The position numbers were made by a program, and so were the translations under genes. This document shows, in pieces, positions 8,261 to 16,651 of a stretch of 64,000 nucleotides of DNA. The notes under the pieces are model-generated. The model did no database searches. It was not told the DNA's origin and saw only the letters and a program-made list of their open reading frames with translations. The stretch spans positions 1-64,000 of the forward strand of contig JAHHHI010000087.1 in NCBI GenBank assembly GCA_019359435.1. Reading direction: 5' to 3'. This DNA is from Kaiparowitsia implicata GSE-PSE-MK54-09C (GTDB taxonomy: Bacteria > Cyanobacteriota > Cyanobacteriia > Elainellales > Elainellaceae). The first letter of the stretch is position 1; each line of letters begins with the position of its first letter.

Positions 8261-9729
8261 GAGAGTTCTCTGTTCTGCCAACGGGGTTTATCCATGACTT
8301 GGCAAACGTTAGCTCTATCAAATCTGTTTGTTGCCAATTCTCTGTAAGTTCTTTGTCAATCTGATAATTTATGGCCTGTTAGCATCCTCTAGCAGCTCAT
8401 TCATAAGCGCCATTGCAGCATGTTGCGAGATCTCGAAGTCGCGTCATATGGCTGTAGTGGCGCTTTATGCTGGAGGGCGATCGCCCTACAAACACGGCTT
8501 ATGATCACTCCGATCGCGTTCATATCTCTGCACCCAGGCGCGTCGTTTAGATGGGGGCAGCGATTGGTAGGTGCCATAGCATTGGCTAAATTGCCAAAAA
8601 TTCCGCAAGAACCGCATTGTGAACGATGCCGCTGCCAGTTCCTCGATCCGATCCGTTAATCGAGATGAAAACCAAAGCATGTCGGTACTCTTCTCTCAAG
8701 TGGACACCTTGAGTGTAGAAATACTCAATCAGACAATCAAAACACGCTATCAATCATGCCCATGAATGAAATTCATGCTGCGTTGGCCACCGATTCCGTG
8801 GCGGATATTCAGGTCGAGTCGTGCCCTATTAGAATGCTTGAATGTGGGTGTAGTCTGCGTTAAGCATGTGTCTAGTGCATACTGCTGCTCCAAGCTGCCG
8901 CTCCGTGCACGCAACCTCATGCTCAGGTTATTCGTCCAATCGGGTGATGTGAATTGTTTGCAATCTTTGTACTATCACTGCATTCAATCCGTTTTATCGC
9001 CCTGCTGATGAGAGGCGAACAAGCTCTCTGCGGTTTGCTTGGAGTCCTATCCATTGTGCAGTGTGCAATATTTCAGCCCTGTTGTATTCCAGACATGAAA
9101 TTCAGTGTGTGTGCTGTGAGTGCCTATAGCGTTTAAAGAGGGTTAAACGTCGGTTTGTCTGGTTTTAATTATTAAAGCTGCGTTTAGAGAGCTTCATGCG
9201 GGCCATCTATCGTGCTTTGTATGAGGCTTGTGCATCACGTTGATCAAGTTCGTCAGTTGATATTACTCGCCTATTTTCTCTGCTTAAATTCTAGAGCGTT
9301 ACATGTAGGGCGATCAAACTTCGTTTCGGTAGTTTAGACTACCGCTCTCTGTTTTATTCATGATTTATTCATAGTGCGTTCCATCGTTCTAGTCTGCATT
9401 GCAGAACTGGATCGAGCACTTGCATTCAATCTGCTGTCTAACAAGCGTTTGGTTAGGTTGGGTTTGGGCGATCGCCCTACATGCCCACAGCCATCTTTCA
9501 TCTATAGGGAGTCTATCTCTCATCCATCTGTAAAAAGTCTTTGAATGATTTTGGTGCTAGATCTTAGGTTATTAGGGCTAGTTCTTATATCCATCTCATC
9601 CGTATCAACCATAGATGTTGAGCCTGTTCCATAATCGTTACGCAAACCGTTACGCGATGCCTGGGGTGCGTTAGTTCTAGAGCATGGCGATGAATTGAGT
9701 CTGTTCTGTTGTTTTCTTGTAAGGCCTCG
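8261..9729. other. 1.5-kb gene-free region
   Basis: Only short open frames without family character are present. HIP1-type GGGCGATCGCCCTACA motifs occur near 8476 and 9469 and a related TAGGGCGATCAAAC near 9307. No tRNA, IS terminus or long repeat was recognised. It may hold promoters for the efflux operon or decayed sequence. Confidence 0.6.
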
Positions 9730-10989
9730 ATGAAAAGGGTTACCGTCGGTCGTTCAGGGCAATTTGTGGGGACGGCGCTGGCAACGGCGCTGCTGGTTGG
9801 CGCGTGCAGCGGTGGGCCACCCGATGGCATGATGGGTGGCCCACCGGGCTTTCCGGTGGAGCTGCAGCAGCTAGAGTCGGGCACCGTGCAAGCGTCATCA
9901 GAATTTGTAGGCGCGCTAGAAGCTCAAGAAAAAGTGTCGCTGCGGCCCGAGATCAGTGGCCGAGTCGTGCAGGTGTTTGTGGCCGAAGGCGACCCAGTCC
10001 AGGCCGGAACACCCATCGCACAACTACGCGCCGATCGCAGCCAAGCCGGGTTGACTGGGGCGATCGCCGATGTAGAAGAGGCTCAGGCGTCGGTTAATAC
10101 CGCGACGGCCCGATTGCGGGCGGCGGTGGCTCAACGCGAGCGAGCGGAATCTGATGTGCGATTGCAGGAAACCGAATTCCGCCGGACTGAAGCGCTGGTT
10201 ACGGAAGGTGCGCTAGCGCAGCAAGATCTCGACCGGGCTGCCAACAGTCGCAGCACCGCTCAATCAACCTTGCAGGCAGCCATCGAAGAAATAGGCGTAG
10301 CCGAGGCGTCTTTGGCAGAAGCGCGATCACGGTTTGAGCGATCGCGGGCTGACCAAGCCGTCGCCACTGAAGATGTGCAAGATCAGCGGATTGTGTCGCC
10401 CATTACAGGAGTGGTGGGCTCTCTTCCGGTAAATCTAGGCGACGTGGTCAGCGCCACCGACACGCTGGCCAGCATCGTTCAAAACGACATTCTAGAACTC
10501 AACATTTCTGTGCCGATTGAGCGCGCTCTTGACCTGCGGGTGGGGCTTCCCGTTGAGCTGCTAAATGCGGCAGGAGAAGCCGCCGTGCGAGGGCAAATTA
10601 GCTTTATTTCGCCCGATGTGAACCAGGGCAACCAGTCGGTGCTAGCGAAGATTGCGTTTGCCAATAATGGCAGCCTGCGAGATGGGCAATTTGTGCGAAC
10701 TCGCTTGATCTGGAGCACTGAGCCAGGCGTGTTGGTGCCCTCGGTCGCCGTGACGCGCATTGCGGGTCAGCCATTCGTGTATGTTGCCGAAACAGGAGAA
10801 GAACCTGGCCCTGATGGGCAACCCATGCAGATCGCACGGCAGCGCCCTGTAACGCTCGGAGCGTTGCAAGGCAACGACTATCAGGTGGTGTCTGGGCTAG
10901 AGCCTGGGGAACAAGTTGTTGTCTCTGGCATTTTGAATTTGCAGGATGGGGCTCCCATTTTGACGGAGCAGCCTGTGAGTCAGCAATAG
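9730..10989 (+). CDS. RND efflux periplasmic adaptor (membrane fusion protein), lipoprotein
   Basis: This subunit bridges the inner-membrane RND pump and an outer-membrane channel. From the ATG at 9730 the protein is 419 residues and starts with a lipoprotein signal ending in the lipobox LLVGACSGG. It has barrel-sandwich halves (LRPEISGRVVQVFVAEGDPV and DQRIVSPITGVVGSLPVNLG) flanking an alpha-hairpin rich in Ala, Glu and Arg (about 105-215), then beta-barrel and membrane-proximal domains ending ISFISPDVNQ...VVVSGILNLQDG. The frame opens 7 codons earlier (9709), but the lipoprotein start is preferred. The pump gene follows after 96 bp. Confidence 0.93.
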   Translation: MKRVTVGRSGQFVGTALATALLVGACSGGPPDGMMGGPPGFPVELQQLESGTVQASSEFVGALEAQEKVSLRPEISGRVVQVFVAEGDPVQAGTPIAQLRADRSQAGLTGAIADVEEAQASVNTATARLRAAVAQRERAESDVRLQETEFRRTEALVTEGALAQQDLDRAANSRSTAQSTLQAAIEEIGVAEASLAEARSRFERSRADQAVATEDVQDQRIVSPITGVVGSLPVNLGDVVSATDTLASIVQNDILELNISVPIERALDLRVGLPVELLNAAGEAAVRGQISFISPDVNQGNQSVLAKIAFANNGSLRDGQFVRTRLIWSTEPGVLVPSVAVTRIAGQPFVYVAETGEEPGPDGQPMQIARQRPVTLGALQGNDYQVVSGLEPGEQVVVSGILNLQDGAPILTEQPVSQQ

Positions 10990-11085
10990 TGGTTTAGGCT
11001 GAGTCAACCATGGGTTTTAGCCATTGGTGACTTTGAAAGCCAGCGTGAATGACCGTCTTCGCCCTATCGTTTCACCCTTTCAGCC

Positions 11086-14000
11086 ATGTTCGCCAAGTAT
11101 TTTATTCAGCGTCCGGTTCTGACGACGGTGTGCTCCATCATCATTGTGTTTCTGGGGGCGATCGCCGCTCCCAGCCTGCCAGTGGCGCAATTCCCTGACA
11201 TCAGCCCAACTCAGGTGGTGGTGACGGCCAACTACCCAGGGGCCGATGCCGAAACCGTGGAAGCCGCCGTGACGAACCTGATTGAGCAGGAGATTAACGG
11301 CGTTCAGGGGATGCGCTACATCAGCTCGACCAGCGGCAGCGACGGCACCAGCCAGGTAACGGTGACGTTTGAACCTACGGAAGATCCCGACTTGGCCACG
11401 GTGAATGTGCAAAGCCTTGTCTCGCGGGTAGAGCCGCGACTGCCGGAGCTGGTGACGCAAACCGGCGTGACCGTATCACAGCAGTCGAGCAACTTTTTGA
11501 TGGCGATCGCCGTGTTCTCTGAGAACAGCGAATATGACGCCACCTTCATGAGCAACTACATCGACCAGTTTATTGCCGACTCTATGCGGCGAATTCGGGG
11601 AGTGGGGTCGCTGCAAATTTTTGGCGAGCGCAAATATGCCATGCGCATCTGGCTTGACCCCAATCGGCTGGCCAGTCGAGGGCTAACCATTCAAGACGTT
11701 TCCACGGCCATTCGGGAGCAAAATATTCAGGTGGGGGCGGGGCAATTGGGGGCCCAACCATCTGACCCCGACCAAGAGTATCAGCTCAACCTGCGGGCCG
11801 AAAGCCGGCTCGCAAACGCCACCGAATTTGAAAATTTGATTGTAGCTAACGCTGAGGATGGCTCGCTGGTGCGCCTGCGTGATGTGGGGCGGGTAGAGCT
11901 GGGCGCTGAGAACTACGGCTCCTTCCTCACCTATAACGGGCGAGAGGCCACGGGAATTGGCATCACTCAGCGGGCCGGCACCAACGCCATTGAAACAGCG
12001 CAGGCCGTACGCGATGCCCTAGAAGAGCTGAAGCAGTCGTTTCCACCCGGTTTGGACTATGCGGTGGCGTTTGACTCGACCACCTTTGTGGCGCGATCGC
12101 TCCAAGACGTGATCGTTACCCTGATTACCGCCATTTTGCTGGTGGTGTTCGTGCTGTTTATCTTTCTGCAAGACTGGCGCGCTACGCTGGTGCCCGCGCT
12201 GGCGATTCCAATCTCGCTGGTGGGCGTGTTTATCTTCACCACCATCTTTGGCTTTTCCATTAACACGCTGACCCTGTTTGGATTGACCTTGGCAACCGGG
12301 GTTGTGGTCGACGACGCCATTGTGGTGGTTGAGGCGATCGCCGCCAATGTCGAAAAGGGAATGACCCCCTATCGCGCCGCAATCGAAGCGATGGAGGATT
12401 TGTCAGGAGCGGTCGTGGCGACCTCGTTGGTGCTCATGGCAGTATTCATCCCCGTCGCGCTGTTTCCGGGCACTACGGGGGCCATCTATCAGCAGTTTGC
12501 GCTGACTATTGCATTTTCTATTGTGGTGTCTACGTTCAACGCGCTCACCTTTTCGCCTGCGATGGCGGCCCTACTGCTGCGCCGCCACACCCAGCAGCCC
12601 AACTGGTTGGGGCGCATTTTCGATCGGTTTAACCGCTTTCTGGATGGGGTGCGGCAGCGCTATCAAAGTGCCCTCGATCTGCTGCTGCAGATTAAGTACT
12701 TTGTCCTGGCGGGGTTTGTCGCGGCGCTGGTGATTACCGGGTTTGTTTATCGCGCTGTGCCGACCTCCTTTTTGCCAGATGAAGATCAGGGCTACTTCAT
12801 TACCCTAGTGCAGGCCCCAGAGGGGGTATCGCTCAACTATACGAAGAACATTCTGGATCAGGCCTCAGAATTGGTGATGCAAGAGCCGGAAGTGCTGTCA
12901 AACTTTGCGGTTACGGGCTTTAGCTTTGCCGGAATTGCCCCTAATCAAGGCATTATGTTTACCCTGCTAAAACCCTGGGAAGAGCGTCGCGGTGCAGACC
13001 AAACGGTGGAGGGGATACTCGGTCGGGTGCAGGGCAAGTTCTTCGGCATTACCACTGCCCGCATTTTCTCGTTAAACCCTCCTGCAATTCAGGGTTTGGG
13101 CACCTTTGGCGGGTTTGAACTGCAGCTTCAAGATCAGCGAGGCAACCTGCCGTTGCCAGAATTTGTGGGCTATATGTATCAGCTGCTCGGGGCTGCAAAC
13201 CAGCATCCTGACCTGCAGGCAGTGTTTTCTACCTTTACGGCCAACACGCCCCAGCTGCTGGTAGAAGTGAACCGCGATCGCGCCAAGTCCTTAGATGTGG
13301 ATCTGCGCGATGTGTTCACCACGATGCAGGGTTTTCTGGGCTCAGAATATGTGAACGATTTCAACTTAGACCAGCGAACCTATCGGGTTTATGTGCAGGC
13401 GGATCAAGAGTTTCGCGCGCAGCCAGAGGATGTGAACCAGCTCTATGTGCGATCGCAGCGGGACGAAATGGTGCCCTTGGGCAATTTGGTGACGCTCACG
13501 CCGACCACCAGTGCCCAAACCATCAGTCACTACAATCTGTTTCGCTCAATTGCGGTGCAGGGGAATGCTGCACCGGGCAGCAGCTCGGGCCAAGCGATTC
13601 GAGCCATGGAGCAACTCGTCACGCAAGTGATGCCACGCACCATTGGCTATGAGTGGACGGGCACAGCCTTGGAGGAAGTAGAGTCTGGGGGACAGGCAGC
13701 GCTGTTCTTTGGCTTTGGGGTGATTATGGTATTTCTGGTGCTTGCAGCGCAGTATGAGAGCTACTTAGATCCCACGATTATTCTGCTAACGGTGCCGCTG
13801 GCAATTCTGGGAGCGTTGGGCGCAGCCTTTATTCGCGGCTATCCCAATGATGTGTATGTGCAGATCGGTCTCGTGATGCTGATTGGCCTAGCGAGCAAAA
13901 ACGCAATCCTCATTGTGGAATATGCCAACCAGCTGCGGCAAGAAGGGCTGGGCATTGTAAAGGCGGCAGTAGAAGCGGCTCAAGAGCGGTTGCGGCCCAT

Positions 14001-14295
14001 TTTAATGACGGGAATTTCGAGCTTGGTAGGCTTCTTTCCGCTGGCGATCGCCTCTGGTGCTGGGGGGGCGAGTCGCCGTTCCTTGGGCACAGCGTTGGTG
14101 GGGGGGTATTTTATCGCCACGCTGCTGAGTTTGTTTGTGGTGCCAGTGCTATATATCATCATTAAGCAACTGGGCGATCGCTTTATGCCTCGCTCGGGCG
14201 ATCGCTCCAATACACCAAGCGACCCCGGCGAGCCTGCTGCGGCTTATTATGGCCCCCCAGCCCCTTCCGAAGAATTCAATCCCCATCACGACTAA
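11086..14295 (+). CDS. RND multidrug efflux pump, AcrB/HAE1 family
   Basis: This is a proton-driven inner-membrane exporter of 1069 residues, the family length. It starts MFAKYFIQRPVLTTVCSIII (TM1) and has the first porter repeat with VTANYPGADAETVEAAVTN. The central helix TLFGLTLATGVVVDDAIVVV carries the two aspartates of the proton relay. The second half shows VMLIGLASKNAILIVEYANQ, which has the relay lysine-region motif GLxxKNAIL. It forms an operon with the adaptor upstream. No outer-membrane TolC-type gene is in the window. The substrate cannot be told from sequence. Confidence 0.95.
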   Translation: MFAKYFIQRPVLTTVCSIIIVFLGAIAAPSLPVAQFPDISPTQVVVTANYPGADAETVEAAVTNLIEQEINGVQGMRYISSTSGSDGTSQVTVTFEPTEDPDLATVNVQSLVSRVEPRLPELVTQTGVTVSQQSSNFLMAIAVFSENSEYDATFMSNYIDQFIADSMRRIRGVGSLQIFGERKYAMRIWLDPNRLASRGLTIQDVSTAIREQNIQVGAGQLGAQPSDPDQEYQLNLRAESRLANATEFENLIVANAEDGSLVRLRDVGRVELGAENYGSFLTYNGREATGIGITQRAGTNAIETAQAVRDALEELKQSFPPGLDYAVAFDSTTFVARSLQDVIVTLITAILLVVFVLFIFLQDWRATLVPALAIPISLVGVFIFTTIFGFSINTLTLFGLTLATGVVVDDAIVVVEAIAANVEKGMTPYRAAIEAMEDLSGAVVATSLVLMAVFIPVALFPGTTGAIYQQFALTIAFSIVVSTFNALTFSPAMAALLLRRHTQQPNWLGRIFDRFNRFLDGVRQRYQSALDLLLQIKYFVLAGFVAALVITGFVYRAVPTSFLPDEDQGYFITLVQAPEGVSLNYTKNILDQASELVMQEPEVLSNFAVTGFSFAGIAPNQGIMFTLLKPWEERRGADQTVEGILGRVQGKFFGITTARIFSLNPPAIQGLGTFGGFELQLQDQRGNLPLPEFVGYMYQLLGAANQHPDLQAVFSTFTANTPQLLVEVNRDRAKSLDVDLRDVFTTMQGFLGSEYVNDFNLDQRTYRVYVQADQEFRAQPEDVNQLYVRSQRDEMVPLGNLVTLTPTTSAQTISHYNLFRSIAVQGNAAPGSSSGQAIRAMEQLVTQVMPRTIGYEWTGTALEEVESGGQAALFFGFGVIMVFLVLAAQYESYLDPTIILLTVPLAILGALGAAFIRGYPNDVYVQIGLVMLIGLASKNAILIVEYANQLRQEGLGIVKAAVEAAQERLRPILMTGISSLVGFFPLAIASGAGGASRRSLGTALVGGYFIATLLSLFVVPVLYIIIKQLGDRFMPRSGDRSNTPSDPGEPAAAYYGPPAPSEEFNPHHD

Positions 14296-14328
14296 ACCCC
14301 TCTCCTACCAACCATGCCAACCGACGCC

Positions 14329-14511
14329 AGCATCAAGCTTGATCAGTTTCTTAAATGGGCCAATGTGGCTCAAACAGGAGGTGAAGCCAAGCTGCTGATT
14401 CAGGCGGGGGAGGTCATGGTCAACGGTGAGGTCGACACACGACGAGGGCGCAAACTTGTGGAGGGCGATCGCGTCAATGTCTTGGGAAAAACCTTTATCG
14501 TGCAGCTCTGA
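14329..14511 (+). CDS. Small S4-domain RNA-binding protein
   Basis: This protein of about 60-65 residues consists of one S4 fold: IKLDQFLKWANVAQTGGEAK, then LIQAGEVMVNGEVDTRRGRK and LVEGDRVNVLGKTF. This matches the YaaA/YbcJ-like free-standing S4 family, thought to bind structured RNA. The first ATG is at 14314 (MPTDAS), 18 bp after the RND pump stop; the coordinates here begin near the S4 core, and 14314 is the likely true start. It is probably at the tail of the efflux transcript. Confidence 0.8.
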   Translation, partial: SIKLDQFLKWANVAQTGGEAKLLIQAGEVMVNGEVDTRRGRKLVEGDRVNVLGKTFIVQL

Positions 14512-14665: not shown

Positions 14666-15490
14666 CTAGCCAGACTCAACCCCGTCTGGGCCTAAATCGT
14701 GAAACTCCATTGGGTTCCAGGAAAAAGCTGGCTCAACTCGACCTGCAGCGACTGCAACGCCCTCCGCAGCTAACAGAGCCTCTTGGTTGGGGGTGTGGCG
14801 TGACAATAGATCCCCATCTGCTGCCACAATGCGGTGCACGGGCAGGTGGGGCGATTTTTTCAGCAGGGCAGGGATAGCGCGGGCATAGCTGGGCGTGAGC
14901 CCTAGCGCCAACAGCAAGTCTCGAGTGCGCACTATGCGCCCGAGGGGAATGCGAGCCACAAACTCATTGAGGCGATCGCTCGGTTTATCTGACAGCGCCG
15001 GTAAGCACAACGGCAGCATCCGCACCTCATCACCGGGGCACACCACCCCATCCCGCACCACCATGCCCAACATCCCCCGCTTGCCATGAATCTGGCGCGA
15101 CAGACCCGGCTTCAGCCGCTCTAGACTGGCGCAAGGCTCACACAAAAACGTCAGCCGCACCTGCGCCTGCGCTCCTAATTGCACCACTGCGCCCGACGGC
15201 AGCGTCTCTACCCAGTCGCTGAGCAGCAGGTTCTCTTGCACCGCACCCGGAGCCAAGCCAAATTCGGTCAGTGCAGGCAAACTCGCAAACAACACCTGCC
15301 GGGGACTGCCAATCATCGCCTGAGAGTCCCCCTCAATTCCCCAGCCCCGTCGAAGCCGCAGCTGTGGCACGGGTTCAACCCAGGCTCCACGAATTGGCTT
15401 TTGAAATAGCCCCACAATTCTCAGGGCTGGTGCAAAATCAGGCGATCGCTGGAACGTCGGTGCAAGTGCCGCCATAAGCAGTGTGGGCAA
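14666..15490 (-). CDS. MOSC domain fused to MGMT/alkyltransferase-like DNA-binding domain
   Basis: This 274-residue protein appears to have two domains. Residues about 20-165 resemble a MOSC (molybdenum cofactor sulfurase C-terminal) domain: GWGIEGDSQ, VQENLLLSDW, and cysteines in FLCEPCASLE. Residues about 178-250 resemble the helix-turn-helix domain of O6-alkylguanine-DNA alkyltransferases: ARIPLGRIVRTRDLLLALGL, SYARAIPALLKK, PVHRIVAADGDL. The active-site PCHRV becomes PVHRI, so it cannot transfer alkyl groups to cysteine and resembles alkyltransferase-like (ATL) proteins. The role is unknown; sensing of damaged or modified bases coupled to sulfur or metal chemistry would be speculation. 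Confidence 0.7.
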   Translation of the reverse strand: MPTLLMAALAPTFQRSPDFAPALRIVGLFQKPIRGAWVEPVPQLRLRRGWGIEGDSQAMIGSPRQVLFASLPALTEFGLAPGAVQENLLLSDWVETLPSGAVVQLGAQAQVRLTFLCEPCASLERLKPGLSRQIHGKRGMLGMVVRDGVVCPGDEVRMLPLCLPALSDKPSDRLNEFVARIPLGRIVRTRDLLLALGLTPSYARAIPALLKKSPHLPVHRIVAADGDLLSRHTPNQEALLAAEGVAVAAGRVEPAFSWNPMEFHDLGPDGVESG

Positions 15491-15609: not shown

Positions 15610-15722
15610 GAATACCACTCTCGAAGGGTGATGAGGGTGAACTGGCATACACCAGGTTGATGAGGGTACCGTCGATCAGCTTACAATCAAGACGGTTGCT
15701 GATATCACGCCTAGAACTAATA

Positions 15723-16193
15723 ATGGTACTCAATCCCGGCGATGTAGCCCCCGATTTCACCTTGCCTGATGGAGATGGCAATTCCATTAGTCTGTCAGAT
15801 TTACAGGGAAAATGGGTCGTGTTGTACTTTTACCCCCGTGATAATACTCCCGGTTGTACGAAAGAAGCCTGCAGCTTTCGCGATGCGTATAGCGACTTCG
15901 ATAGCGCTGAGGTTGCGGTGTTAGGTGTCAGCACTGACGATGCGAAATCTCATACGAAGTTTTCCACTAAGTTCAATCTGCCTTTCCCGCTATTGACGGA
16001 TGCAGAGGGGGAAATGGCAACAACCTATGACAGCTATGGGCTTAAAAAGTTCATGGGCAAGGAATACATGGGCATTAGCCGCAAAACCTTCATTATTGAC
16101 CCCACTGGCAAGATCGCTAAGATATACCCCAAAGTGAAGCCCGATAACCATGCAGCCCAGGTATTGGCAGATCTAGAGGCTCTGAAAGGATAG
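15723..16193 (+). CDS. prxQ: Peroxiredoxin Q (bacterioferritin comigratory protein type)
   Basis: This thiol peroxidase reduces hydrogen peroxide and organic peroxides with thioredoxin as donor. From the ATG at 15723 it is 156 residues. The active segment YPRDNTPGCTKEACSFRD has peroxidatic Cys45 and resolving Cys50, the five-residue spacing of the atypical 2-Cys PrxQ class. The chain ends normally near PKVKPDNHAAQVLADL. An in-frame ATG 22 codons upstream exists, but its extension overlaps the repeat-rich gap and lacks family similarity. A Nudix gene follows after 2 bp, so they are probably cotranscribed. Confidence 0.95.
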   Translation: MVLNPGDVAPDFTLPDGDGNSISLSDLQGKWVVLYFYPRDNTPGCTKEACSFRDAYSDFDSAEVAVLGVSTDDAKSHTKFSTKFNLPFPLLTDAEGEMATTYDSYGLKKFMGKEYMGISRKTFIIDPTGKIAKIYPKVKPDNHAAQVLADLEALKG

Positions 16194-16195
16194 CC

Positions 16196-16651
16196 ATGCG
16201 TCAACTCTGGCGATATTTACACTCAGCGATGGGAATCATTTTTCGGCATCCCATCACCGGCACTAGCGTCATTCCAGTGATGCCCGATGGCACCATTGTG
16301 CTAATTCGGCGACGCGATAACGGGTTATGGAGTTTGCCCGGTGGCATTGTTAACTGGGGAGAAAATATTTCAACTTCGGTGCAGCGTGAGCTAGAAGAAG
16401 AGACTGGCCTAGTGGTGAAGCAGGTCGGTCGCCTAGTCGGAATCTACTCATCTCCTGATCGCGACCCGCGCTTTCATTCAATTTGTGTAGCCGTAGAAGC
16501 CCATGTATCAGGCAACTTCCAGATACATGACACGCTAGAAGTGCTAGACGTGCAGGCGTTTGATCCTGGCGCAATTCCACTAGATACGCTGTCACATGAT
16601 CATCAGCAACAACTGCAAGATTATTTTGCGGGTTTAACGGCGATCGCCTAA
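16196..16651 (+). CDS. Nudix hydrolase
   Basis: This protein of 151 residues has a canonical Nudix box: G-IVNWG-E-NISTSVQ-RELEEETGL, with the REUxEExGU metal-binding glutamates. It hydrolyses a nucleoside diphosphate linked to another moiety; the substrate is not predictable, though oxidised nucleotides, ADP-ribose or NADH are usual. It begins 2 bp after prxQ, suggesting an oxidative-stress-related transcript (inference). Confidence 0.9.
   Translation: MRQLWRYLHSAMGIIFRHPITGTSVIPVMPDGTIVLIRRRDNGLWSLPGGIVNWGENISTSVQRELEEETGLVVKQVGRLVGIYSSPDRDPRFHSICVAVEAHVSGNFQIHDTLEVLDVQAFDPGAIPLDTLSHDHQQQLQDYFAGLTAIA

Follow-up and report, generated by a model that had tools for sequence, protein, structure and literature searches.

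A MOSC Domain Joined to an Alkyltransferase-like Domain in a Conserved Family of Cyanobacterial Proteins

The 64,000-nucleotide stretch of Kaiparowitsia implicata DNA analyzed in this work (hereafter, the window) contains a minus-strand gene (14,666–15,490) whose translation carries the motifs FLCEPCASLE and PVHRI in a single chain of 274 amino acids. The initial annotation placed the first motif in a MOSC domain and read the second as the altered PCHRV motif of an MGMT-like, alkyltransferase-like (ATL) domain, a pairing that it considered undescribed. Are these two domains truly parts of one protein, and what could a protein built in this way do?

Domain architecture and predicted structure

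Both halves were recognized by Pfam above its curated cut-offs. The MOSC family (PF03473) matched residues 78–157 (E = 2.3e-6; 28.1 bits against a cut-off of 22.7) and DNA_binding_1 (PF01035) matched residues 175–245 (E = 7.6e-8); NCBIfam returned only a very weak MoaC/MOSC match. The AlphaFold2 model, built from a 17-row family alignment, had a mean pLDDT of 89.6 and a pTM of 0.84. When its parts were compared with the PDB using VIA-align, the MOSC domain (residues 22–162; 15,005–15,427, minus strand) matched Bacillus subtilis YuaD with Z = 19.3 over 140 aligned residues at 1.9 Å, Geobacillus stearothermophilus YiiM with Z = 16.9, and human mARC1 with Z = 15.1. The ATL domain (residues 166–260; 14,711–14,995, minus strand) matched Schizosaccharomyces pombe Atl1 with Z = 13.2 over 93 aligned residues at 2.4 Å, a Vibrio ATL with Z = 12.6, and human AGT with Z = 10.2. 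A sequence profile of the C-terminal half gave E values of 9.9e-12 for Atl1, 3e-9 for the Vibrio ATL, and 1e-4 for AGTs among solved structures, with an alignment that also covers the ATL C-terminal extension, and hhalign connected the fused domain to cyanobacterial ATLs (probability 98.8, E = 8.8e-17). Profile, fold search, and hhalign agree that the ATL fold is present with its C-terminal extension and without the N-terminal AGT domain. The domain assignments of the initial annotation were thus confirmed, neither half falling into another fold.

The MOSC and ATL domains are joined in a single protein. Chance, or a merger of two genes by a missed stop or read-through, was ruled out because both domains share one frame in 64 full-length members of the family. 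The exact start of the chain is less certain: TTG was assigned by rule, and the real start may be the ATG at codon 6 or a later one; pLDDT is below 50 at residues 5–19, and most relatives begin at a position equivalent to residues 20–23. An active AGT was also rejected, as the nucleophilic Cys of PCHR is missing from the protein, in which PVHRI (residues 217–221; 14,828–14,842, minus strand) replaces the PCHRV of AGTs and the PWHRV of ATLs.

The C-terminal half is not the 3-alpha domain that follows the MOSC domain of YiiM. Pfam found no match to PF03475 in the window protein, in two other fusions, or in seven truncated members described below, whereas YiiM itself, taken as a positive comparison, matched at 2.5e-14. 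Also by hhalign, the full ATL domain showed no sequence link to the 3-alpha domain.

Distribution of the family and genome context

The fusion is a conserved family found in dozens of cyanobacteria. Counting the window's own genome in each set, 11 of 40 near genomes and 9 of 386 sampled across the phylum carry a full-length member; single-domain matches in five more genomes of the phylum sample were rejected as family members. A scan of 84,980 species genomes yielded 68 loci, of which 54 are fusions (L025–L078, with L035 broken): 51 cyanobacterial, two from Herpetosiphon (Chloroflexota), and one from a Bacteroidota metagenome-assembled genome (MAG). Pfam confirmed both domains in six scanned representatives, the Bacteroidota one remaining under the DNA_binding_1 cut-off. 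The 64 full-length rows used throughout consist of 17 from alignment A1 and 47 of the 54 loci, after removal of the broken L035 and of six loci that duplicate A1 rows; some family rows are near copies, 67 of 75 passing a 93% identity filter. The members come mainly from Nostocales and Leptolyngbyaceae, with Herpetosiphon and the Bacteroidota MAG in addition, and some are plasmid-borne. Broken or cut copies also occur in Nostocales (L084, L089, and L035); Nostoc sp. FACHB-152 has both an intact copy (L044) and one that breaks off past the MOSC half (L084).

Nine of ten matched plasmid records, from Nostocales and Gloeothece, contain the fusion along nearly its whole length, and two of these copies were verified with Pfam. 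Five of the nine are annotated as "MGMT family protein" and four as hypothetical. The former label masks the MOSC half, so that the architecture described here corrects it. One copy lies on plasmid A of Trichormus variabilis ATCC 29413 (AVA_RS26275), where an annotated IscB is found two genes away. No relative of the fusion was found in phage records.

The fused domain is distinct from the usual repair proteins of these organisms. In a tree of DNA-binding domains that included 25 of the 64 fused ones, these grouped into a single clade (100/99), set off from 15 ATLs and 30 AGTs by a long stem (3.1). The window's genome also encodes an ordinary ATL (PWHRV) and an ordinary AGT (PCHRV), and the fusion is therefore a third, separate gene. 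We also observed a second ATL-like protein (L128), a 144-amino-acid frame with PWHRV that diverges from the usual cyanobacterial ATL, and ATL-sized cyanobacterial proteins in which PWQR replaces PWHR (L133, L134, and L136).

A sister group of 11 truncated proteins was identified in Bradyrhizobium, Poribacteria, gammaproteobacteria, Argonema, and a Shapirobacteria bin, after L084 (broken), L089 (contig end), and L092 (degenerate) had been dropped. They share the MOSC domain of the fusions, continue with a helix-turn-helix (HTH) of the pattern S-Y-x-R-A-x-P, and end ahead of the PxHR loop. In a MOSC-only tree of 66 rows (L081t, whose N-terminal part is cut, was excluded), full-length and truncated members fell on opposite sides in 97% of 200 bootstrap trees. 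The truncated C-terminal part is homologous to the HTH of the fused ATL domain (hhalign probability 96.1, E = 3.6e-9), indicating that this HTH can exist without the base pocket. Its descent from the 3-alpha domain of YiiM was rejected, as the two align in register but not significantly (probability 1.2%, E = 0.045). The model of a truncated member (mean pLDDT 89.7) had no ATL or AGT chain among the 50 PDB matches listed, which is not proof of absence.

Divergent from the fusion in the window are a peroxiredoxin gene (AhpC-TSA/Redoxin by Pfam, Bcp-like; 15,657–16,193, plus strand) and a Nudix hydrolase gene (16,196–16,651, plus strand; Pfam NUDIX, 1.9e-19). The pair has the same order in L026 and L027 and lies about 3 kb from the fusion in L025, and an unrelated Nudix cluster adjoins the fusion in L037, L040, and L078 and the broken copy L084. 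This neighborhood is weakly compatible with nucleotide sanitation. Close Nostoc relatives have PAP_fibrillin and SurE upstream, and in other members the fusion adjoins genes for Nudix, GNAT, P450, or adenylate kinase proteins. No operon partner was constant across the lineages compared, and the context therefore supports nothing firmly; likewise, we found no electron-donor domain, either fused or in constant linkage. On the other side of the gene, the window contains, by eye, a 65-amino-acid frame resembling a small S4-type RNA-binding protein (14,314–14,511, plus strand) and a membrane-fusion-like protein with a 1069-amino-acid RND-type efflux transporter (9,709–14,295, plus strand).

Finally, we assessed the co-occurrence with synthesis of the molybdenum cofactor (Moco). 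The gene moaC was present in all 29 genomes searched (19 with full-length, nine with truncated, and one with MOSC-only proteins), including three gammaproteobacterial genomes of 1.7–1.9 Mb. Among near relatives, it was found in 10 of 11 fusion-bearing genomes, the exception being a genome estimated as 91% complete (G015), and in 26 of 29 fusion-free ones. Because so many fusion-free relatives carry moaC, this is a test passed rather than a proof, and co-occurrence inside the cyanobacteria is uninformative. Few genomes of the phylum (5 of 117) encode the classic 3-alpha domain of YiiM, and searches of the window's genome returned none. One relative's genome encodes a YiiM-type MOSC plus 3-alpha protein in a single frame of 591 amino acids (L151:976–2748, plus strand) that, by eye, adds a ferredoxin-reductase-like and a [2Fe-2S]-like part; such proteins are mentioned in PMC10637980.

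Conserved residues in the two halves

In the MOSC half, residues Arg-64, Gln-65, Glu-86, Asn-87, Arg-112, Cys-117, Pro-119, Cys-120, Arg-138, and Gly-139 are invariant in the 64 full-length rows. The CEPC motif (residues 117–120; 15,131–15,142, minus strand) ends in Cys-120, the invariant MOSC cysteine that is a Mo ligand in studied members. Cys-117, Pro-119, and Cys-120 are found in all 64 full-length and all 11 truncated members, numbers that are partly built in because the genome scan pattern contained CEPC, including Cys-120. In the A1 rows, found without that pattern, the motif is CEPC in 16 of 17 and CDPC in the other. In the truncated members, Asn-87 is kept in 9 of 11 and the Arg-64 position is Arg in seven and Lys in three of 11.

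For Escherichia coli YiiM, a published model places Cys-120 beside Mo and the cofactor in contact with Arg-55, Ala-56, Asn-87, Arg-117, Gln-115, Ser-118, Ser-200, and Trp-201 (PMC5818509). Cys-120 and Asn-87 of the window protein align with the residues of the same numbers in YiiM. Arg-64 corresponds to YiiM Arg-55 by the register of the secondary structure, MAFFT having placed Arg-64 against a nearby residue. The phosphate-binding Gln-115 and Ser-118 of YiiM are not kept in the fusion.

The residues of the fused ATL domain are under constraint as well. The Arg finger (Arg-204), Pro-207, Arg-220, and Leu-240 are present in all 64 full-length rows, Pro-217, His-219, and Glu-243 in 63, and Gln-236 in 62. 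The exceptions to PxHR are L075 (PLYR) and L057 (HVHR). The variable position is Ile in 28, Val in 27, Leu in seven, Thr in one, and Lys in one, and never Cys or Trp, so that Ile, Val, or Leu replaces the ATL Trp in 62 of 64; in the reference ATLs and AGTs this column was set by their selection through PWHR and PCHR, and the PWQR proteins were left out of the ATL rows. Because clipping of the AGT rows removed everything past the motif, the missing C-terminal Trp there is no result.

The HTH (residues 189–211; 14,858–14,926, minus strand) contains Ser-201, Tyr-202, the Arg finger, and the invariant Pro-207. Three residues past the Arg finger, the recognition helix has Pro in 64 of 64 fusions compared with Gly in 15 of 15 ATLs and Gly (21) or Ala (nine) in 30 AGTs. 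The base-flipping Tyr is found in 50 of 64 and lost in 14, including the window protein. The frame of the pocket has thus been kept, but the DNA-reading helix has been remodeled.

Ser-201 is conserved in 60 of 64 full-length and 10 of 11 truncated members and Tyr-202 in 58 of 64 and 10 of 11, and the Arg finger is Lys or Gly in 3 of 11 truncated rows. As the Ser-Tyr pair is kept in both groups and the Arg finger is relaxed in the truncated one, this pattern suggests that one helix end could serve the cofactor, with Arg-204 and PxHR serving the substrate in full-length members.

The structural comparisons point to a similar arrangement. Aligned to G. stearothermophilus YiiM, the window model is matched up to model residue 196 and chain residue 200, and the truncated model, aligned to E. 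coli YiiM, up to 168 and 199, right before Ser-200–Trp-201; the ranges given by VIA-align report end residues only. The alignments to YiiM thus stop just ahead of Ser-201–Tyr-202 in the window protein and Ser-173–Tyr-174 in the truncated model. By Pfam and alignment, Ser-200 and Trp-201 fall within the 3-alpha domain of YiiM, and in the published model they contact the cofactor phosphate (PMC5818509). In these models, the fused HTH seems to occupy the place of the 3-alpha domain.

Proposed function and comparison with known systems

All MOSC enzymes assayed in vitro are N-reductive on N-oxygenated compounds (PMC10637980), and YiiM, YcbX, and mARC act on 6-N-hydroxylaminopurine (PMC10637980, PMC3831636). 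From this chemistry of its class we infer that of the fusion. Moco-binding MOSC enzymes are known to use N-hydroxylated purines as substrates (PMC5818509, PMC3831636, PMC10637980), and since studied relatives such as YiiM are Moco reductases of these compounds, both halves would belong to purine-damage biology. The initial annotation had proposed a link between base recognition and sulfur or molybdenum-type chemistry, or thiolated nucleobases; the molybdenum-type part is possible, nothing found points to sulfur or thiolated bases, and N-hydroxylated purines would provide a better link.

We therefore favor, with roughly even confidence, a MOSC-class Moco base reductase of YiiM/mARC-like chemistry that has an ATL-derived domain at the position of the YiiM 3-alpha domain. 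On the MOSC side, Moco would be held by Cys-120 with Arg-64 and Asn-87. The cofactor cavity would be closed by Ser-201–Tyr-202, where the recognition helix begins, as Ser-200–Trp-201 close it in the model of E. coli YiiM. Lacking both Cys and Trp, the ATL pocket could accommodate a purine that is N-hydroxylated or N-oxygenated in another way and present it to the Mo center, where N-OH would be reduced to NH and the base restored. The most likely substrate would be a damaged nucleobase, either in nucleotides or in DNA. What YiiM/YcbX-type enzymes act on physiologically has been called an open question (PMC3831636), and the fusion to a base-flipping-type domain points to a nucleobase.

DNA may be the site of the damaged base, given the retained Arg finger, PxHR, and Glu, but the invariant Pro in place of Gly stands against it. 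A molybdenum enzyme that repairs DNA directly, its ATL-derived domain flipping an N-hydroxylated or N-oxidized base toward Moco for reduction to the normal base, is in our view doubtful. We know of no DNA-repair enzyme that reverses damage directly via reduction at molybdenum. Were the fusion to act on DNA, direct damage reversal would gain a reductive route that depends on molybdenum.

The strongest competitor to the base reductase, although we judge it unlikely, is a general Moco N-reductase of amidoximes, N-oxides, or hydroxylamines in which the ATL-derived part serves solely as a structural cap over the cofactor cavity and has no role on nucleic acids. The sister group has the MOSC domain and HTH without the PxHR pocket, keeping Ser-Tyr while relaxing the Arg finger, and the recognition-helix Pro, the loss of the base-flipping Tyr in part of the family, and the coexisting ordinary ATL and AGT are all in agreement with a cap. 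However, PxHR, Glu-243, Gln-236, and Arg-204 are near-invariant in the full-length members, beyond the apparent needs of a cap, and nucleobase analogues are substrates of studied MOSC enzymes.

The initial annotation had also stated that ATLs bind O6-alkylguanine and flag it for repair. Accordingly phrased for the fusion, its C-terminal half would direct O6-alkylguanine in DNA to nucleotide excision repair, with the MOSC domain as a partner-binding or redox-sensing module. ATLs, above AGTs, are the nearest solved relatives of this half, the Arg finger and PxHR are retained, and an interaction with UvrA is described for S. pombe Atl1 or E. coli ATL (PMC10779285). Binding of O6-alkylguanine is nevertheless weakened by the absence of the base-flipping Tyr and the ATL Trp from the window protein and by Pro for Gly, the last two of these changes being widespread in the family, and further by the PWHRV ATL and the AGT already in the cell. 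Moreover, few residues are better conserved than those of the MOSC active site, and we consider such a flag improbable.

A Moco- or redox-responsive regulator, with the MOSC domain as ligand sensor and the HTH as output, would explain why the HTH is present in both groups and the MOSC pocket is conserved. AGT-type HTHs, however, show no sequence preference in their binding to the minor groove (PMC10779285). There is no constant gene neighborhood as a target and the catalytic-type Cys is invariant, making regulation a very improbable role. MOSC domains were initially predicted to be sulfur carriers, and CEPC has two cysteines. A sulfur carrier or handler of thiolated nucleobases is nonetheless hardly credible, as studied MOSC proteins are Moco N-reductases (PMC10637980) and no sulfur-transfer or thiolation gene was found among the Pfam-identified neighbors.

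Both domains are of known kinds, and their combination is apparently unreported, in agreement with the initial annotation. No paper pairing a MOSC domain with an ATL or MGMT was found in a literature search to which subscription papers were mostly closed. The accessible parts of the mARC review name MOSC fusions with 3-alpha, flavin/[2Fe-2S], NifS, MoaB, and XdhC domains, not ATL (PMC10637980); those of the AGT/ATL review name EndoV and histone-like fusions, not MOSC (PMC10779285); and those of a survey of new molybdoprotein fusions name none with ATL.

Compared with YiiM of E. coli and Geobacillus, a 6-hydroxyaminopurine reductase composed of MOSC and 3-alpha domains, the fusion shares the MOSC fold, the invariant Cys, the E-N motif with Asn-87, a helical C-terminal domain in roughly the same position, and a Ser-aromatic pair. 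It differs in its ATL-type C-terminal domain, in CEPC replacing RSPC, and in the loss of Gln-115 and Ser-118. The MOSC fold is likewise that of B. subtilis YuaD and human mARC1, but YuaD-type proteins have no further domain and mARC has other extensions (PMC10637980). With S. pombe Atl1, the Vibrio ATL, and E. coli YbaZ, the C-terminal half has in common the whole ATL fold and its C-terminal extension, the Arg finger, PxHR, and Glu; in the fusion, Ile, Val, or Leu stands for Trp and Pro for Gly, a MOSC domain is joined, and the domain forms its own long branch. Finally, the archaeal AGT-EndoV and ATL-EndoV fusions also join an ATL/AGT C-terminal domain to another domain (PMC10779285), but the partner there is a nuclease, whereas in the fusion described here it is a molybdoenzyme-type MOSC domain.
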